Below, one piece after another: positions 45,457 to 51,338 of a DNA stretch of 54,760 bases. A program made the position numbers and the translations under genes. The notes beneath the pieces were generated by a model that saw only the letters and a program-made list of their open reading frames with translations, had not been told where the DNA came from and ran no database searches. Position 1 is the first letter of the stretch. Each line of letters opens with the position of its first letter. Source of the stretch: Bacteroidota bacterium (GTDB lineage Bacteria > Bacteroidota > Bacteroidia > Flavobacteriales_F > PHOS-HE28); assembly GCA_014584605.1 (NCBI GenBank), contig JACTMO010000040.1, forward strand, positions 1 to 54,760. Direction: 5' to 3'.

Positions 45457-45482
45457 GATAACCGGTGGGGAACGTACGGAAT
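45457..45482 (+). promoter_or_regulatory. bipartite GATAACC-N13-CGGAAT element, copy 1
   Basis: GATAACC at 45457-45463 and CGGAAT at 45477-45482, separated by 13 bp, then GGACC and GAAC. It lies 21 bp before the likely start of the first LuxI-like gene. Four more copies with exactly the same spacing occur in the next 4.6 kb and nowhere else I could find in the window. Confidence 0.8.
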
Positions 45483-45503
45483 GGACCGCAAGAACCCCAC
45501 GCC

Positions 45504-46115
45504 ATATGCACGCTCCACCCCATCACCTCCCGCGCCGACCTGCTCGACTACCACAGGTTCCGCTACTGCATCTATGCGAACAGTCAGCAGCGCGGCTTCC
45601 TGGCTGGGCCGCAGGGCTTCGACACGGACGTGTACGACTCCCGGGCGCTGCACCTGGGCTGGTACGAGAACGACCGTCTGGTGGGCTGCGTACGCCTGCT
45701 GGACCCGATCGCGGGCCGCGACCCGCTCCATTTCTTCAAGGACCTGCCCGATGGCCCGCGCCGGGAAGCGGCTCTGGCCCTGGTCGCGCAGGCCCGGAAG
45801 GAGGGCCTGCCGGTGTGCGAGGTGAGCCGCTTGTGCCTGGCGCCGGAAAAGCGCTCCCTGGCCACCGTGCGCCGCTTCGTGCTGGCCGTGATCGCCACCG
45901 CCCACCGGTATGGCCGGGATCATTGCCTGTTCACCTGCGATGCGCCCCATGCGGCCTTCTGGCAGCGGATGGGCTTCGAGGTGGTCGAGGGCTTCAGCGG
46001 GTACGACCGCCCTCGGAGCCCGCACCAAGGCTACCTGCTTCGCGGGAATTACGCGACGCTGCTCGCCCTGCACCGCGGGGAACTGCAGGAACTGGGGCAT
46101 CTGCTGGCGGCATAA
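45504..46115 (+). CDS. LuxI-like (autoinducer-synthase fold) acyltransferase 1, apparent ATA start
   Basis: A 203-residue protein of the GNAT-related acyl-homoserine-lactone-synthase fold. Residues that are nearly invariant in LuxI proteins are present: Arg20 (in YHRFRY), Asp42 and Asp45 (FDTDVYD), Arg64 (GCVRLL), and Glu106 with Arg109 (EVSR). LuxI enzymes join an acyl group to S-adenosylmethionine; related enzymes make N-acyl amino acids, so the product is uncertain. Two paralogues follow at 48644 and 49460. Ungapped alignment to them (LxPIT at residues 4-8) puts the start at codon ATA (45504), where both paralogues have ATG. The only other in-frame start, GTG at 45465, lies inside the promoter element. 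No LuxR-type receptor gene is in the window. Confidence 0.8.
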   Translation: MCTLHPITSRADLLDYHRFRYCIYANSQQRGFLAGPQGFDTDVYDSRALHLGWYENDRLVGCVRLLDPIAGRDPLHFFKDLPDGPRREAALALVAQARKEGLPVCEVSRLCLAPEKRSLATVRRFVLAVIATAHRYGRDHCLFTCDAPHAAFWQRMGFEVVEGFSGYDRPRSPHQGYLLRGNYATLLALHRGELQELGHLLAA

Positions 46116-46124
46116 GCCATGGAT

Positions 46125-46150
46125 GATAACCCATGCTACGGATCCGGTAT
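46125..46150 (+). promoter_or_regulatory. bipartite GATAACC-N13-CGGTAT element, copy 2
   Basis: GATAACC at 46125-46131 and CGGTAT at 46145-46150 (13-bp spacer), followed by TGACC and GAAC, 31 bp before the crystallin-like gene's ATG. Starts 9 bp after the stop of the first LuxI-like gene. Confidence 0.8.
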
Positions 46151-46181
46151 TGACCATTGAACCCATCGAACAAACAACACC

Positions 46182-46586
46182 ATGAAAACGCTCCTCACCC
46201 TCCTCGTCGCATTGGCCGCTCAGGCCACCATCGCCCAGTCCGACGCTGCCCTTGTTCTCTACGCGGACGCCAACCAGTCGGGAAAGCGGCATGTGGTTCG
46301 GCAGGCCGCTGGATACGCGGACATGCGCATCGACCTGCAGCACGCCGTGAGCTCCCTGACCCTCGCGGCCGGCTACACCCTGACACTTCATGATGCCATG
46401 GACGGAGGCGGACAGGACAGTCTTCTCATCACCGGACCATGCGTGATCAGTGATCTGAAGGTGCTGCCGCGGCTGCACGGCAACGGCAACTGGGACAACA
46501 CGGCGGTAGCGCTGACCCTGGACCTGAACCCGAGCCCGACGCCTGCCCCCATGGTTCCTTCAGGAACGCTGGCATCAGCCGAGTGA
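46182..46586 (+). CDS. secreted beta/gamma-crystallin-like small protein
   Basis: A 134-residue secreted protein. MKTLLTLLVALAAQATIAQ is a clear signal peptide. The mature part reads like one beta/gamma-crystallin domain: VLYADANQSGKRHVV (first Greek-key strand pair), then AVSSLTLAAGYTLTLHDAMDGGGQDSLLI, which has the SSL..xxGYxxTLxxxxxxxG pattern of these domains, then VISDLKVLPR. Such domains often bind calcium and stabilise extracellular proteins. The resemblance is at pattern level only, so the family call is moderate. The last 15 residues are Pro/Ala/Ser-rich. The gene belongs to the shared-motif set and is followed after 39 bp by the LytTR gene, with which it may be co-transcribed. Confidence 0.75.
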   Translation: MKTLLTLLVALAAQATIAQSDAALVLYADANQSGKRHVVRQAAGYADMRIDLQHAVSSLTLAAGYTLTLHDAMDGGGQDSLLITGPCVISDLKVLPRLHGNGNWDNTAVALTLDLNPSPTPAPMVPSGTLASAE

Positions 46587-46625
46587 CCCACGCGGTATGA
46601 ACGAAGAAATAGTACTGGAAAGCTC

Positions 46626-46973
46626 ATGCGCTTCCCCCTCCTCCTCCGCACGGCGCACGGCCCGCAGGTCTTTGATGCACGCACCCTGCTGCGCATCGAT
46701 GCCGAGGACAAGTACGCCCGCGTGACCTGCCTTGCCGGACCGAACACCGTGGTGCTCCATGCGCTGAGCGATCTGGAAGAACGCCTCCGCTGCGGTAAAA
46801 GGATCGGCGACCTGCTCTTCGCGCGCACCCACCGCAGCTGCATCGTGGCGCTGCATCATGTGCACGGCCTGGACCGGGACCGCAACCTGGTCCTGATTGA
46901 AGGCCTCTCCGCCCCCCTCAGCAAGCGGGCCTGGCCGATGCTCGACAAGCTGCTTGGAACTCTCCAGAACTGA
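46626..46973 (+). CDS. stand-alone LytTR DNA-binding protein
   Basis: A 115-residue protein that is almost entirely a LytTR domain: LLRIDAEDKYARVTCLAGPNTVVLHALSDLEERLRCGKRIGDLLFARTHRSCIVALHHVHGLDRDRNLVLIEGLSAPLSKRAWPMLDKLL. The RTHRSCIV part (with the conserved H-R) and the final basic helix KRAW are typical. LytTR proteins bind direct DNA repeats and usually carry a receiver domain (AgrA, LytR); this one has none, so another signal or partner must control it. It lies inside the LuxI-like cluster. Upstream at 46593-46598 CGGTAT followed by GAAC resembles the second box of the shared element, but the first box is degenerate. Confidence 0.88.
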   Translation: MRFPLLLRTAHGPQVFDARTLLRIDAEDKYARVTCLAGPNTVVLHALSDLEERLRCGKRIGDLLFARTHRSCIVALHHVHGLDRDRNLVLIEGLSAPLSKRAWPMLDKLLGTLQN

Positions 46974-47019
46974 CCGGATCGCCCGGCACCAGCGCGGACA
47001 TGAAAGTGCCGGGCAATGC

Positions 47020-48195
47020 TCAGCGCAGCGCCTTCTCCAAGTGACCCCACAGCGTGCCGAGCGAACACACCTCGATGCCCTTGCCGTACGGAAAGTCGTC
47101 GGATGAAGGTGTAACGATCAGCTGCACGGGGGCCTTCACCGCTTCAAAGGCCAGGTGGTTGCCCTTGCTCAGCGCGGGCGAGTTGGTGGTCTTTATCTCC
47201 AGGGCGATGACCGGTCGCAACGAACGGGTGATCAACAGGTCGAGCTCCGAACCATCGTGCGTGCGGAAATAGTGCAGTTCAGCACGGCCCTTCAACCAGG
47301 CCCGCACTTGCTGGATCACGAAGCCCTCCCACGAGTTGCCCGCCAGAATACCCGAACGCAACGAAGCCAGATCGTTGATGCGCAGTTGGCCATGCAGCAA
47401 TCCGGTATCAGCGAAATAGACCTTGGGCGCCGAGGTCAATCGCTTGCGCAGGTTCATGTGGTAGCTGGGCAGCACCGTGATGAGCATGGCCTGCTCGAAC
47501 CACGAGAGGTAGCGCTTCACCGTGGGACCCGTCATGCCGATGGACTTGGCGATCATGCTCATGTTCAGCGGTGTGCCGTGCACCGAGGCGAGCATGGCCA
47601 GCATGGCGCGGGTATCCTTGGGATCCGCGTTCAGGCCCAGGATCCGCATCTCCCGCTCGGTGAAGTCGCGGAGATAGTCTTGCGCCCAAGCGAAGGCGCG
47701 CGCATCGCTCGATGCCAGGAAGGCGCGCGGGAAGCCGCCGCGCAACCACAATCTGTCGCGGTCGCGCTGCGCCACCTCGTGCAGGCAGAACGGGTGCAGG
47801 TCCAGGTAGGCGATGCGGCCTGCCAGCGACTCGGCGCTGCGCCGAATGACCTCCGGCGACGATGAGCCCAGCAGCAGGAAGCGGCCCGCCCGGCGGTCCC
47901 GGTCGATCAGCGAACGGAGCAAGGGGAACAGTTCCGGCTTGCGCTGCACCTCGTCGATCACCACCAGCTTTTTGCGGTTGACATGCAGGAAGGCTTCCGC
48001 GTCGCGCAGGCGGTCCAGGGCGGCAGGGCTCTCCAGGTCCAGGTACAACACCTCCCGTTGCGCGGCCTTGGCCAGTTGCATGGCAAGGACCGTTTTCCCC
48101 ACCTGCCGCGCGCCGAGGATGCCCACGGCGGGCGCCCGCTTCAGCGCAGCGAGCGCATCCGCATGCAGGTAACGCGTGCGTATTCGGTTTCCCAT
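47020..48195 (-). CDS. AAA ATPase of the DUF4143 (AAA_14) family
   Basis: A 391-residue protein with an N-terminal P-loop ATPase and a C-terminal DUF4143 domain. Walker A is GARQVGKT (Lys34), Walker B is KLVVIDEVQ, and sensor-like LLLGSSS follows; a winged-helix-like part includes SMIAKSIGMTGPTVKRYLSWFEQAMLI, and the C-terminus has the restriction-endonuclease-like LDLLITRSLRPVIALEIKTT (D..ExK pattern). Members are numerous, often duplicated, in Bacteroidota; their function is not known. It is transcribed against the surrounding LuxI-like genes and interrupts that cluster. The promoter is a palindromic element directly at the start codon (48194-48232); a broken paralogue with the same element lies just upstream. 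Confidence 0.92.
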   Translation of the reverse strand: MGNRIRTRYLHADALAALKRAPAVGILGARQVGKTVLAMQLAKAAQREVLYLDLESPAALDRLRDAEAFLHVNRKKLVVIDEVQRKPELFPLLRSLIDRDRRAGRFLLLGSSSPEVIRRSAESLAGRIAYLDLHPFCLHEVAQRDRDRLWLRGGFPRAFLASSDARAFAWAQDYLRDFTEREMRILGLNADPKDTRAMLAMLASVHGTPLNMSMIAKSIGMTGPTVKRYLSWFEQAMLITVLPSYHMNLRKRLTSAPKVYFADTGLLHGQLRINDLASLRSGILAGNSWEGFVIQQVRAWLKGRAELHYFRTHDGSELDLLITRSLRPVIALEIKTTNSPALSKGNHLAFEAVKAPVQLIVTPSSDDFPYGKGIEVCSLGTLWGHLEKALR

Positions 48196-48232
48196 GACCG
48201 CAAATCTAATATCAGATATTACATCTACGGTC
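48194..48232 (-). promoter_or_regulatory. palindromic promoter/operator of the DUF4143 ATPase gene, copy A
   Basis: Outer arms GACCG and CGGTC enclose the perfect inner palindrome TAATATC-A-GATATTA. Read on the minus strand it contains TAGATTTG (48208-48201), an exact TAnnTTTG, 5 bp before the ATG at 48195. The repeat could therefore be a promoter with overlapping operator. A second copy lies at 48402-48442. Confidence 0.7.
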
Positions 48233-48294
48233 TTTAATTGGACACCGACCGTGCGCGGGGGTCATGGGAATTTGCGCGCAACTGACCCGCCTGG

Positions 48295-48400
48295 GGGCTT
48301 GCCCCCCCTGGCGCGGACCCAGCATGGCAACGGCGGGCCGCTCCGCAAGCCGTTCCAACACCACGGCCATCAGGCTTCTGGTTATCAGCGCATGAGCCAT
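48295..48400 (-). pseudogene. relic 5' end of a second DUF4143 ATPase gene
   Basis: From the ATG at 48400 the minus strand reads MAHALITRSLMAVVLERL, then AERPAVAMLGPRQGGQ. Ungapped against the N-terminus of the intact neighbour (MGNRIRTRYLHADALAAL, then KRAPAVGILGARQVGK) 15 of 34 residues are identical, ending in the Walker A motif. Removing one G from the run of seven at 48302-48308 restores GPRQGGK. Beyond that point no further ATPase sequence is visible, so this is a frameshifted and truncated paralogue with its promoter palindrome still in place. Confidence 0.75.
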
Positions 48401-48401
48401 G

Positions 48402-48442
48402 ATGACCGCAATTTTAACATCGATTATTACAATTGCGGTCAT
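48402..48442 (-). promoter_or_regulatory. palindromic promoter/operator, copy B (in front of the relic)
   Basis: Perfect 11-bp arms TGACCGCAATT (48403-48413) and AATTGCGGTCA (48431-48441). It shares ATGACCGCAA, the central ATC-GAT-ATTAC-like core and CGGTC with copy A. On the minus strand TAAAATTG, one mismatch to the -7 consensus, stands 8 bp before the relic's ATG. Confidence 0.7.
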
Positions 48443-48593
48443 AGGTGGGCCGCCCTTGCCCAGCGCGGCCTTCCTGCACGGAAGTGGCGGGCAATGACCG
48501 GCGCCACGATCACAGCGATTGCGACGGCTACCCTTGGCCGTGCGTCTGGCAAGTGCCTCGGCGACCGGCCCAGAATGACCGCCGGGGCCGGGT

Positions 48594-48619
48594 GATAACC
48601 GCATGCTCACGGACGGAAT
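48594..48619 (+). promoter_or_regulatory. bipartite GATAACC-N13-CGGAAT element, copy 3
   Basis: GATAACC at 48594-48600 and CGGAAT at 48614-48619 (13-bp spacer), then GAACC, 24 bp before the ATG of the second LuxI-like gene. Confidence 0.8.
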
Positions 48620-48643
48620 GAACCTCCAGAAACACGCAACGCC

Positions 48644-49270
48644 ATGATCACCCTCACGCCCATCACCGCCCCGGAAAAGTTGGAGGAGTACTACCGCTTC
48701 CGCTACCGGATCTACAACGAGAGCCGCTGGAAGGGCTTGGTTTCCGAATGTGATGGCATCGAAAAAGATGCTTTCGATGCGCGCGCCCATCACTACGGTT
48801 GGTACATCAACGGCGAGCTGGCCGGTTGTGTGCGCTTCATCGAGGCGGACGGCAGCGCGACGCCGATCCCGATGCTGAACTACATGGCCACAGCGGCCGC
48901 AGACCGTGTTCGGGACTACATCGCCGAACGCCGGGCGCAGGGCCAGCCCATGCTGGAGGCCAGCCGCTTCTGCCTTGCCCCGGTACACCGGGGCCTGCGC
49001 ACCGCACGCGCATTCGTGCTCGCCATGGTGCGCACCATGCAGCCGCTGGGCTATGCGCATGGCCTGTTCGACTGCGACGACGCACATGTCCCCTTCTACC
49101 GCCTCTGCGGCTTCGAGCCTTTACAAGGCGCTGTCCAGTTCACACAATCGGTCAATTCAAGAAAGTGGACCTGCCTCACCTACAGCTACGACCGTATCGC
49201 GTGCAAGCAGGGCTGGGACCGTGATCCGATGGGGTTTAAGCGGCCTTGCGCGATACGCAAGGCGGCGTAG
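48644..49270 (+). CDS. LuxI-like acyltransferase 2
   Basis: A 208-residue paralogue of the protein at 45504 with the same hallmark residues at the same positions: Arg20 (YYRFRY), Asp42 and Asp45 (EKDAFD), HHYGWY at 49-54, Arg64 (GCVRFIE), and Glu105 with Arg108 (EASR). The C-terminal half keeps CLAPVHRGLRTARAFVLAMVRTMQPLG, the acyl-binding platform region of the fold, and ends with a longer basic tail (KQGWDRDPMGFKRPCAIRKAA). ATG start, 24 bp after a bipartite element. A perfect 8-bp hairpin (GCCTTGCG, CGCAAGGC, 49243-49263) overlaps the last codons and may aid termination. The product is unknown; acyl-homoserine lactones or N-acyl amino acids are the candidates. Confidence 0.85.
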   Translation: MITLTPITAPEKLEEYYRFRYRIYNESRWKGLVSECDGIEKDAFDARAHHYGWYINGELAGCVRFIEADGSATPIPMLNYMATAAADRVRDYIAERRAQGQPMLEASRFCLAPVHRGLRTARAFVLAMVRTMQPLGYAHGLFDCDDAHVPFYRLCGFEPLQGAVQFTQSVNSRKWTCLTYSYDRIACKQGWDRDPMGFKRPCAIRKAA

Positions 49271-49407
49271 TGCAGCGAAGTGGATGGACCATTCACGCCG
49301 TTCGGCGCCCGCTCGGTCCGCCCTTTTACCCGTTGTGCGGAAAACTCGATCCGTGCTGGTAGGTATACACCCAGGTCGGTAGCCTTGAGCAAGTGGAACG
49401 CATGATC

Positions 49408-49433
49408 GATAACCGGTCGGCGGCACCTGGAAT
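49408..49433 (+). promoter_or_regulatory. bipartite GATAACC-N13-TGGAAT element, copy 4
   Basis: GATAACC at 49408-49414 and TGGAAT at 49428-49433 (13-bp spacer), then AGACC and GAAC, 26 bp before the ATG of the third LuxI-like gene. Confidence 0.8.
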
Positions 49434-49459
49434 AGACCCTTGAACAACGCCCCGCCGTC

Positions 49460-50062
49460 ATGATCCACCTCCGCCCCATCACCCCTGAAGAGCACCCCGC
49501 CTACCACGCCTTCCGCAGGACCCTCTATGCCACTAGCAAGATCTGCGGATTCATTGATCCCACAACCGGAACGGACATCGATGCCCACGACACCCATGCT
49601 CAACACTACGGTTGGTTTCCCTGCAGCGAGCAGAAGGCCAGCGTGCGCCTAATCGAACTTGCGGACACAACAGAGCCGCTACCGCTCTTCAGCATCTTGG
49701 ATGCGCATCGCCGATGGCTAACGGAACGCTTCATCAAAGGTCATTGCATGGTCGGTCGCCGCCTGGCGGAAACCAGTCGCCCCTGCTTCGCTCCGGAGCA
49801 CCGCTCTCTGTGTAATGTCATGCGCTTTGTCATGGGCATTGTCCGCTGCGCGCATGAGCAAGGCATCGTCAACGGCATCTTCGATGTGAGCGCCCACCAT
49901 CGGGACTTCCACCTACGCATGGGCATTACAGAACTGGAAGGTGGTCGAAGCTTCCCCGCGCGCGTCGGCCCGGCCGTACTTATGACCTACAAGCATTCCA
50001 AACTCGTCGTCTTCGCACGTTGGCAACCGCAACGCAACATCGCGGGGGCGATCGCCGCGTGA
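49460..50062 (+). CDS. LuxI-like acyltransferase 3
   Basis: A 200-residue paralogue, more diverged than the other two. Hallmark residues: Arg19 (FRRTLY), Asp41 and Asp44 (TDIDAHD), HYGWF at 49-53, Arg63 (SVRLIE), Glu104 and Arg107 (ETSRP). The stretch CFAPEHRSLCNVMRFVMGIVRCAHEQG matches the equivalent part of the others. GC is lower than in copies 1 and 2, so its history may differ. Three paralogues with conserved catalytic residues but divergent acyl-pocket halves suggest that different acyl chains or acceptors are used. ATG start fixed by alignment with the paralogues (MIHLRPIT versus MITLTPIT). Confidence 0.83.
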   Translation: MIHLRPITPEEHPAYHAFRRTLYATSKICGFIDPTTGTDIDAHDTHAQHYGWFPCSEQKASVRLIELADTTEPLPLFSILDAHRRWLTERFIKGHCMVGRRLAETSRPCFAPEHRSLCNVMRFVMGIVRCAHEQGIVNGIFDVSAHHRDFHLRMGITELEGGRSFPARVGPAVLMTYKHSKLVVFARWQPQRNIAGAIAA

Positions 50063-50066
50063 AGAT

Positions 50067-50092
50067 GATAACCTGTTCGTGGCACCGGGTAT
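50067..50092 (+). promoter_or_regulatory. bipartite GATAACC-N13-GGGTAT element, copy 5
   Basis: GATAACC at 50067-50073 and GGGTAT at 50087-50092 (13-bp spacer), followed by GAAC, 30 bp before the ATG of the collagen-like lipoprotein gene. It starts 4 bp after the stop of the third LuxI-like gene. Confidence 0.8.
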
Positions 50093-50122
50093 CAATACTG
50101 AACGATCAAACGCACAAACAAC

Positions 50123-50629
50123 ATGAAAACGCTCAAGATCTCCCTCTCTGCCGTCACGGCGATCATGCTCACGGCTTGCGAAAAAGAAGGACCCGTTGGA
50201 CCGCAAGGACAACAAGGGGACCCCGGTGCTGATGGAAGCGCCAATGTCACCAGTATAACGGGAACATCCGAGGATACTTATACAGGAGGGGCTTCGGACT
50301 TCTACTATACCCTGTCCACAAGCCTCATAACACAGAGTATCATTGATGAAGGTGTGGTGCTTGGATATTTGAGCACTTCCAGTGGTTGGACACCCTTGAA
50401 CTGGCAACGATCACTGGAAGATGGTGATGTACTCCTCATGTACCGCGGATACTTCGACGTTGGCGAGTACCGCGTGAACATGAAACGCAGCGATGGTGGG
50501 ATTATTCAGCCATCGGATCCGTTGGATAGCATGAACCCACTCTCCCTGAAACTAGTGATCATCGAAGGGGGACAACGTATGCAGCAAGCAGAGATCGATC
50601 GGATCACGGCTACGGAACTGGCGCGCTGA
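50123..50629 (+). CDS. lipoprotein with a short collagen-like segment
   Basis: A 168-residue lipoprotein. MKTLKISLSAVTAIMLTAC gives the lipobox MLTAC with Cys19, followed by EKE and a short collagen-like run of G-x-y triplets (GPVGPQGQQGDPGADG, residues 23-38). The rest is a beta-rich domain of unknown type (TSEDTYTGGASDFYYTLSTSLITQSIIDEGVVLGYLS ... WQRSLEDGDVLLMYRGYFDVGEYRVNMK). Collagen-like lipoproteins of this architecture are common in Bacteroidota and are probably surface-exposed, but the function is unknown. It is the fifth gene with the shared bipartite element. GC about 50%, lower than the chromosomal average here. A hairpin follows the stop. Confidence 0.85.
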   Translation: MKTLKISLSAVTAIMLTACEKEGPVGPQGQQGDPGADGSANVTSITGTSEDTYTGGASDFYYTLSTSLITQSIIDEGVVLGYLSTSSGWTPLNWQRSLEDGDVLLMYRGYFDVGEYRVNMKRSDGGIIQPSDPLDSMNPLSLKLVIIEGGQRMQQAEIDRITATELAR

Positions 50630-50699: not shown

Positions 50700-51338
50700 A
50701 TGAAAAAGACCCTCACCACCTTCGGCTTCCTCTGCATCTTCTACCTGGCACCACTGTGGCAGCGGACGGAACTGCTACTCTCATGGCCCGTGCTGGTCCT
50801 CTCCTCATTCTGCACGGTGCTCTTCCTCACACAGCCGGCCTTGAGTATCGAGGAAAGCAAGGCGCACAAGGCCACCGATGGCTGGACGATCTGGTTGATC
50901 CTGGCCGTGAGCGGCGCGGGCCAGATCCTCAGCCTGCTGGACTGGGCCTACCGGCTGGGCGCTCCGCAAGGCCTCGACCCCTGGGCCATCGCCGGCCTGT
51001 GCGGTCTGCTCTTCGGTACGGTCTTCCGCCTCTGGGCCATCAGCACGCTCAAGAGCAACTTCGCCGCCACGGTGCAGATCAAGCAGGGGCAGCAGCTCAT
51101 CACCACCGGCCCGTACCGCTGGCTGCGCCACCCCAGCTACACCGGGGCGTGGCTCGCGATGATCGGCGCGGCATTGCTCATGCACAGCTATATTGGTCTT
51201 GTGATCCTGGGGCCGGGCATGCTGCTGGTGTACGTGCGCAGGATCGCGGTGGAGGAGCGCACCTTAGAGCAGGCGTTCGGGGCGGCGTTCTTGAACATGA
51301 AACAAGACACGCAACGGCTCCTGCCAGGGCTCTGGTAG
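50700..51338 (+). CDS. isoprenylcysteine carboxyl methyltransferase-like membrane protein
   Basis: A 212-residue integral membrane protein of the ICMT/phospholipid methyltransferase type. Five to six hydrophobic segments are visible (TTFGFLCIFYLAPLW; LLLSWPVLVLSSFCTVLFL; WTIWLILAVSGAGQILSLL; WAIAGLCGLLFGTVFRLWAIS; WLAMIGAALLMHSYIGLVIL). The cofactor-binding motif is present: GQQLITTGPYRWLRHPSYTGAWL (residues about 133-155) followed by the RIAVEERTLEQAFG helix, both typical of the family that methylates small molecules or lipids using S-adenosylmethionine. An in-frame ATG at 50667 lies in the preceding hairpin; I start at 50700. No bipartite element precedes it, so its tie to the LuxI-like cluster is only by position. 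Confidence 0.85.
   Translation: MKKTLTTFGFLCIFYLAPLWQRTELLLSWPVLVLSSFCTVLFLTQPALSIEESKAHKATDGWTIWLILAVSGAGQILSLLDWAYRLGAPQGLDPWAIAGLCGLLFGTVFRLWAISTLKSNFAATVQIKQGQQLITTGPYRWLRHPSYTGAWLAMIGAALLMHSYIGLVILGPGMLLVYVRRIAVEERTLEQAFGAAFLNMKQDTQRLLPGLW

Follow-up and report, generated by a model that had tools for sequence, protein, structure and literature searches.

Five neighbouring genes in a draft Bacteroidota genome are each preceded by the same pair of short sequence boxes, and the questions raised by this locus are what the boxes do and which protein reads them. The window analysed here is the whole 54,760-nt stretch of contig JACTMO010000040.1, part of a draft assembly of 3.74 Mb (89 contigs, 99.9% complete). 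The favoured reading, to which a probability of roughly one half is assigned, is that the bipartite element serves as promoter/operator for a small, self-contained gene island that seems to be mobile, and that the element is most likely read by a LytTR-only protein that the island itself encodes.

A first-pass annotation, made from the sequence alone, described five copies of the element GATAACC-N13-(C/T/G)GG(A/T)AT, and the window sequence bears out the coordinates, the boxes and the 13-bp spacers of all five (Table 1). Box 2 ends 21, 31, 24, 26 and 30 bp ahead of the start codon in copies 1-5, in line with the 21-31 bp given there. The description of the sequence behind box 2 needs amending: (G/A)ACC is present in copies 1-4 and GAAC in copies 1, 2, 4 and 5, but these are not the same four copies. 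In the genome-wide scan that the annotation had proposed, GATAACC-N14-GGWAT occurs five times, always within this 4.6 kb and always oriented towards a gene, and a reversed-pattern control gave no match in the whole genome. By chance, 0.01 copies would be expected in the window, and no shuffled sequence reached five.

Table 1. Element copies and genes of the island in the window. The Pfam FeeM cut-off is 27 bits; acyltransferases 1 and 2 score above it and acyltransferase 3 just below.
Feature	Position	Strand	Remarks
Element copy 1 (GATAACC-N13-CGGAAT-G-GA)	45457..45485	+	before acyltransferase 1
FeeM-like acyltransferase 1	45504..46115	+	Pfam FeeM E 1.6e-11, 44.6 bits
Element copy 2	46125..46153	+	heads crystallin-like/LytTR operon
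Secreted betagamma-crystallin-like protein	46182..46586	+	betagamma-crystallins match best in Foldseek
LytTR-only DNA-binding protein, 115 aa, no receiver domain	46626..46973	+	Pfam LytTR PF04397
AAA_14/DUF4143 ATPase, island member without element	47020..48195	-	91% identical in MAG_34
Element copy 3	48594..48622	+	before acyltransferase 2
FeeM-like acyltransferase 2	48644..49270	+	Pfam FeeM E 6.6e-10, 39.4 bits
Element copy 4	49408..49436	+	before acyltransferase 3
FeeM-like acyltransferase 3, divergent	49460..50062	+	FeeM E 6.7e-6, 26.4 bits; aligns with acyltransferases 1 and 2
Element copy 5	50067..50095	+	heads lipoprotein/methyltransferase genes
Short collagen-like repeat lipoprotein	50123..50629	+	weak Pfam Collagen match, E 0.019
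ICMT/PEMT-type methyltransferase	50706..51338	+	Pfam ICMT E 4.4e-20

Every plus-strand transcription unit of the island has one element. Gene spacing suggests that the genes behind the first in each unit are co-transcribed, and copy 5 probably heads an operon comprising the lipoprotein and methyltransferase genes. Profile comparison with the PDB matched the acyltransferases to AHL synthases, and acyltransferase 2 is also weakly of the LuxI family (Autoind_synth E 1.1e-5). At the position where homologues of acyltransferase 1 begin, this gene lacks an in-frame ATG and reads ATA instead (45504); it may use a rare start codon or carry a one-base change. An ATG is present in this region at 45506 in another frame, and a GTG at 45465 inside the element. 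The secreted protein has no Pfam match, and its predicted model, of moderate confidence, gave no Foldseek match with E below 0.001; the crystallin-like label is thus moderately supported. The DNA-binding protein matches the LytTR profile at E 2.3e-8 and 34.6 bits, above the cut-off of 22.6.

A search with the acyltransferase encoded at 48644-49270 returned one relative, in Flavobacteriales MAG_34 (JABWBQ010000022.1 = L036 = G005:C118), the draft assembly of a second genome of the same genus (G005). Six copies of the element, all without mismatch, are found there before genes homologous to those of the window island: the crystallin-like/LytTR operon, four acyltransferase genes, one of which is split by a frameshift (at about 3496-4097 of L036), and the methyltransferase gene. 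A further acyltransferase gene (L036:6001) has no intact copy. Between the two islands the acyltransferases are 76 and 63% identical, the methyltransferase 76.5%, the LytTR protein 73% and the crystallin-like protein 40-44%. The ATPase is the most conserved island protein (91%; others 44-77%) although it has no element, and it may have a separate history. Because the MAG_34 element directly precedes the methyltransferase gene and the collagen-like lipoprotein is missing from that island, the methyltransferase, not the lipoprotein, is on this comparison the conserved target of copy 5. The targets originally listed, namely the acyltransferases, the crystallin-like protein and the lipoprotein, do carry the element, but the lipoprotein is not a conserved target and the ICMT-type methyltransferase has to be added. 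When the whole window was set against some 70 kb surrounding the cluster in MAG_34, the clear homologues were the island genes, with one weak 96-aa match outside them. Since the flanks are unrelated and the gene order differs between the two genomes, the island occupies a different locus in each and probably changed place in the past.

The second island sharpens the definition of the element. Over the 11 copies from the two genomes both boxes are invariant at every position except W, and the refined form reads Y-GATAACC-N14-GGWAT-N-R-A, with C or T directly before GATAACC and mostly G three positions further upstream. Compared in pairs, the copies are on average 100% identical in box 1 and 90% in GGWAT, whereas the 13-bp spacer and the 20 bp upstream are each at 31%, near the 27% expected by chance, in agreement with the initial statement that the spacers are unrelated. 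Because the spacers have diverged while the boxes have not, also between species, the plain reading is that selection has kept the two boxes at a fixed distance, and the comparison supports a real shared regulatory element that was retained in the second species. This same contrast bears on the idea that the repeats are relics of gene duplication or gene-start recombination and have no regulatory role. Some MAG_34 acyltransferase copies (L036:2789-6642) hardly differ between box 2 and the first codons but diverge beyond, as relics might, which suggests conversion or shuffling of acyltransferase gene starts in that genome; however, the element spacers of these copies are unrelated, the element is found before unrelated genes too (crystallin-like, lipoprotein, methyltransferase), and the invariance of boxes beside diverged spacers needs selection. 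An origin of the repeats as mere relics is thus very improbable.

If the element is regulatory, its position points to the promoter. The primary Bacteroidota promoter, recognised by sigma-ABfr, has TTTG near -33 and TAnnTTTG at -7 (PMC7366714), and the boxes of the element lie at like positions relative to the presumed start, but neither box matches. As the first-pass annotation had held, the element does not resemble this promoter, and no exact TAnnTTTG was found from 200 bp 5' of each copy to the start codon. No shared upstream motif besides the element was found before the element-headed genes, and at two of the copies the whole intergenic gap measures 60-66 bp. For these reasons the element is probably the promoter itself, or a site overlapping it, and not an add-on to an ordinary promoter; the invariant spacing, the two unlike boxes, the short distance to the start codon and the lack of a primary-sigma promoter nearby all fit such a geometry. 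The nearly fixed distance of 21-31 nt before the start codons could also be taken to mean that the element acts in the mRNA, in translation, processing or protein binding. Against this, nine leaders showed no structure beyond that of shuffled sequences (z -1.3 to +1.2), and no plus-strand gene stands immediately before copies 1 and 3, so that a nearby promoter would be needed, of which none was seen. Action at the RNA level is hardly credible, and from the lack of an RNA-fold signal we infer that the element acts in DNA, as a promoter/operator. A short upstream ORF beginning at an ATG inside box 2 was rejected by eye, copies 2, 4 and 5 having no ATG there.

The reach of the element was then defined by its distribution. 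Among 45 genomes of the genus, only the host and MAG_34 have more than one copy, the others having 0-1, like the control; among 395 genomes of the class, a sample that covers a subset of it, no element cluster was found elsewhere, and at E 1e-14 none of the other genomes searched in the class has a member of the acyltransferase family. Relatives of the acyltransferases were not found in plasmid records, nor were relatives of the LytTR protein in plasmid records or viral contigs. With one mismatch allowed, the host and MAG_34 genomes together gave three matches outside the islands, where chance predicts about 0.94 per genome. Two of these fall inside genes; the third, GTTAACC-N14-GGTATGAA, lies in a MAG_34 intergenic gap directly 5' of a decayed LytTR-only gene (L106:1501-1700; G005:C127:138665), whose product is 55% identical over 40 residues to a LytTR-only protein of another genome, G038. 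By a rough estimate, a chance match would land before such a gene with a probability of 1e-5 to 1e-4, for what is a single case noticed after the fact. A longer pattern with up to 3 mismatches gave many matches, and the two best that were checked (C9, C31) lie inside genes. A host-wide regulon was rejected, the exact and one-mismatch searches of both genomes having returned the island copies and a chance number of others. The undescribed regulon proposed in the first-pass annotation is therefore upheld as a local, island-borne one and not as one that extends across the host genome. The open-access literature yielded no account of an element of this kind or of FeeM-like clusters under the control of LytTR. 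The sequence is best regarded as a new regulatory element carried by the island, most likely serving it as a private on/off switch.

Which protein, then, operates this switch? Promoters of ECF sigma factors have two short boxes of differing sequence, which are separated by a fixed distance and lie near the start codon, and the upstream one contains AAC. The element shares this layout in 11 of 11 copies, including the AAC core and the closeness to the start codon, and could accordingly serve an alternative sigma factor of the ECF type whose gene lies elsewhere in the genome, with GATAAC(C) as the -35 and GGWAT as the -10 box. Candidates would not be lacking, as each genome has about 20 Sigma70_r4_2 matches, and the Bacteroides ECF factor SigW-1 has been reported to control a distant locus (PMC12596196). 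However, a co-occurring ECF gene, which the first-pass annotation had suggested looking for, is not present on the window contig among the Sigma70_r4_2 matches, and in MAG_34 the nearest ECF gene is about 36 kb from the island. Among the ECF loci fetched, which are a part of those in the two genomes, the element is found within two mismatches at 0 of 30, and no sign of autoregulation of an ECF gene through the element was seen at them. It would also be odd if a host sigma factor that serves an island found at differing loci had no host targets outside it. The promoter-like layout behind the ECF suggestion thus stands, but the linked gene, the element at the ECF loci fetched and the host regulon do not, and an ECF factor as reader is somewhat unlikely.

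A further candidate is a different transcription factor of the host, not linked to the island, or the primary sigma factor in an unusual form. It draws on an imperfect inverted likeness between the boxes (TGAT-A-ACC versus GGTAT), which gave the best dyad scores; yet it too would have no further targets in the host genome, and the island supplies a DNA-binding protein of its own. Such a factor is quite unlikely.

That DNA-binding protein, the LytTR-only protein, fits better than an ECF sigma factor as the reader of the element. Exact copies of the element are confined to the island in both genomes, and in both the lytTR gene belongs to an element-headed operon. The gene is better conserved (73%) than its operon partner, the crystallin-like gene (40-44%). 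Clear relatives of the protein are found only in the two element-bearing genomes, apart from one lone diverged copy in G038, and of the three off-island near-copies one stands directly before the decayed second LytTR-only gene of MAG_34. The known LytTR-regulated promoters (CoxC, RcoM, AgrA-type) are alike in that a LytTR-domain protein is encoded with its presumed targets and in that the site is bipartite, with about two helical turns between boxes; the CoxC operator overlaps the -35 box (PMC11347149). The island protein differs in having the LytTR domain alone, and its candidate boxes differ in not being direct repeats. The usual target of LytTR proteins is a pair of direct repeats spaced by two helical turns (PMC11347149), whereas the two boxes of the element are neither direct repeats nor a clean palindrome, and the canonical arrangement of ~9-bp direct repeats 10-13 bp apart is not seen. 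In a profile self-comparison of the 11 copies over shifts of 10-32, with scores that are descriptive and not tests, the best direct shift was 24 bp, at a weak score, and 21 bp was negative; no convincing symmetry, direct or palindromic, emerged. The intact LytTR-only gene of G038, which does not have the element before it, also speaks against this reader. Linkage, moreover, accounts for LytTR and element occurring together just as well as a functional tie. The LytTR protein, whose binding was suggested at the outset beside an ECF factor, thus fits better than the latter, although the element lacks the canonical direct repeat, and the chances that LytTR is the reader are about even.

If the LytTR protein does read the element, the switch might work as follows. 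Box 1 (GATAACC) would occupy the -33/-35 position and box 2 (GGWAT-N-RA) the -10 position, and transcription would probably begin a few bases after box 2, giving a short leader. The protein, made from the gene behind the crystallin-like gene, would bind the element and govern access of RNA polymerase to the element-headed genes of the island, so that the acyltransferases, the methyltransferase and the secreted protein would be switched together. Because its own operon is headed by the element, lytTR would be autoregulated, the protein feeding back on its own synthesis.

These findings describe a regulatory code that is private to one small gene island and apparently travels with it. The island also brings together several FeeM/LuxI-related synthases, in a lineage with few descriptions of such systems. 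As in LuxI and FeeM signal-synthase loci, its acyltransferases match Pfam FeeM and, weakly, Autoind_synth; it differs from these loci in having three to five copies in tandem, almost every one with an element of its own, and in adding a LytTR-only regulator and an ICMT-type methyltransferase. It is enticing, if rather unlikely to prove right in every part, to picture a mobile, self-regulating signalling or lipid-modification module, in which tandem FeeM/LuxI-type synthases and the methyltransferase are controlled by a receiver-less LytTR protein reading an asymmetric, promoter-embedded site unlike known LytTR operators and in effect defining the promoter. Were LytTR shown to read the element, the direct-repeat rule for LytTR sites would need widening; were an ECF sigma factor to read it, this would be an unusual case, the island drawing on a host sigma factor without other visible targets. 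The locus offers a compact test system, with a single element and a single candidate regulator to consider, and with five promoters in the window and six in MAG_34.

Two minor observations concern the surroundings of these genes. The G038 relative of the LytTR-only protein (L051:7210-7650, G038:C32) is 36% identical and its gene stands beside unrelated genes; this gene is intact, with no such element upstream and no acyltransferases nearby. In both islands, a near-palindrome of 37-41 bp (GACCGCAAATCTAATATC...GCGGTC type) occurs twice 5' of the ATPase gene, about 208-210 bp apart (window 48194-48232 and 48402-48440; L036 1346-1386 and 1556-1596), and is a candidate operator or mobile-element end.
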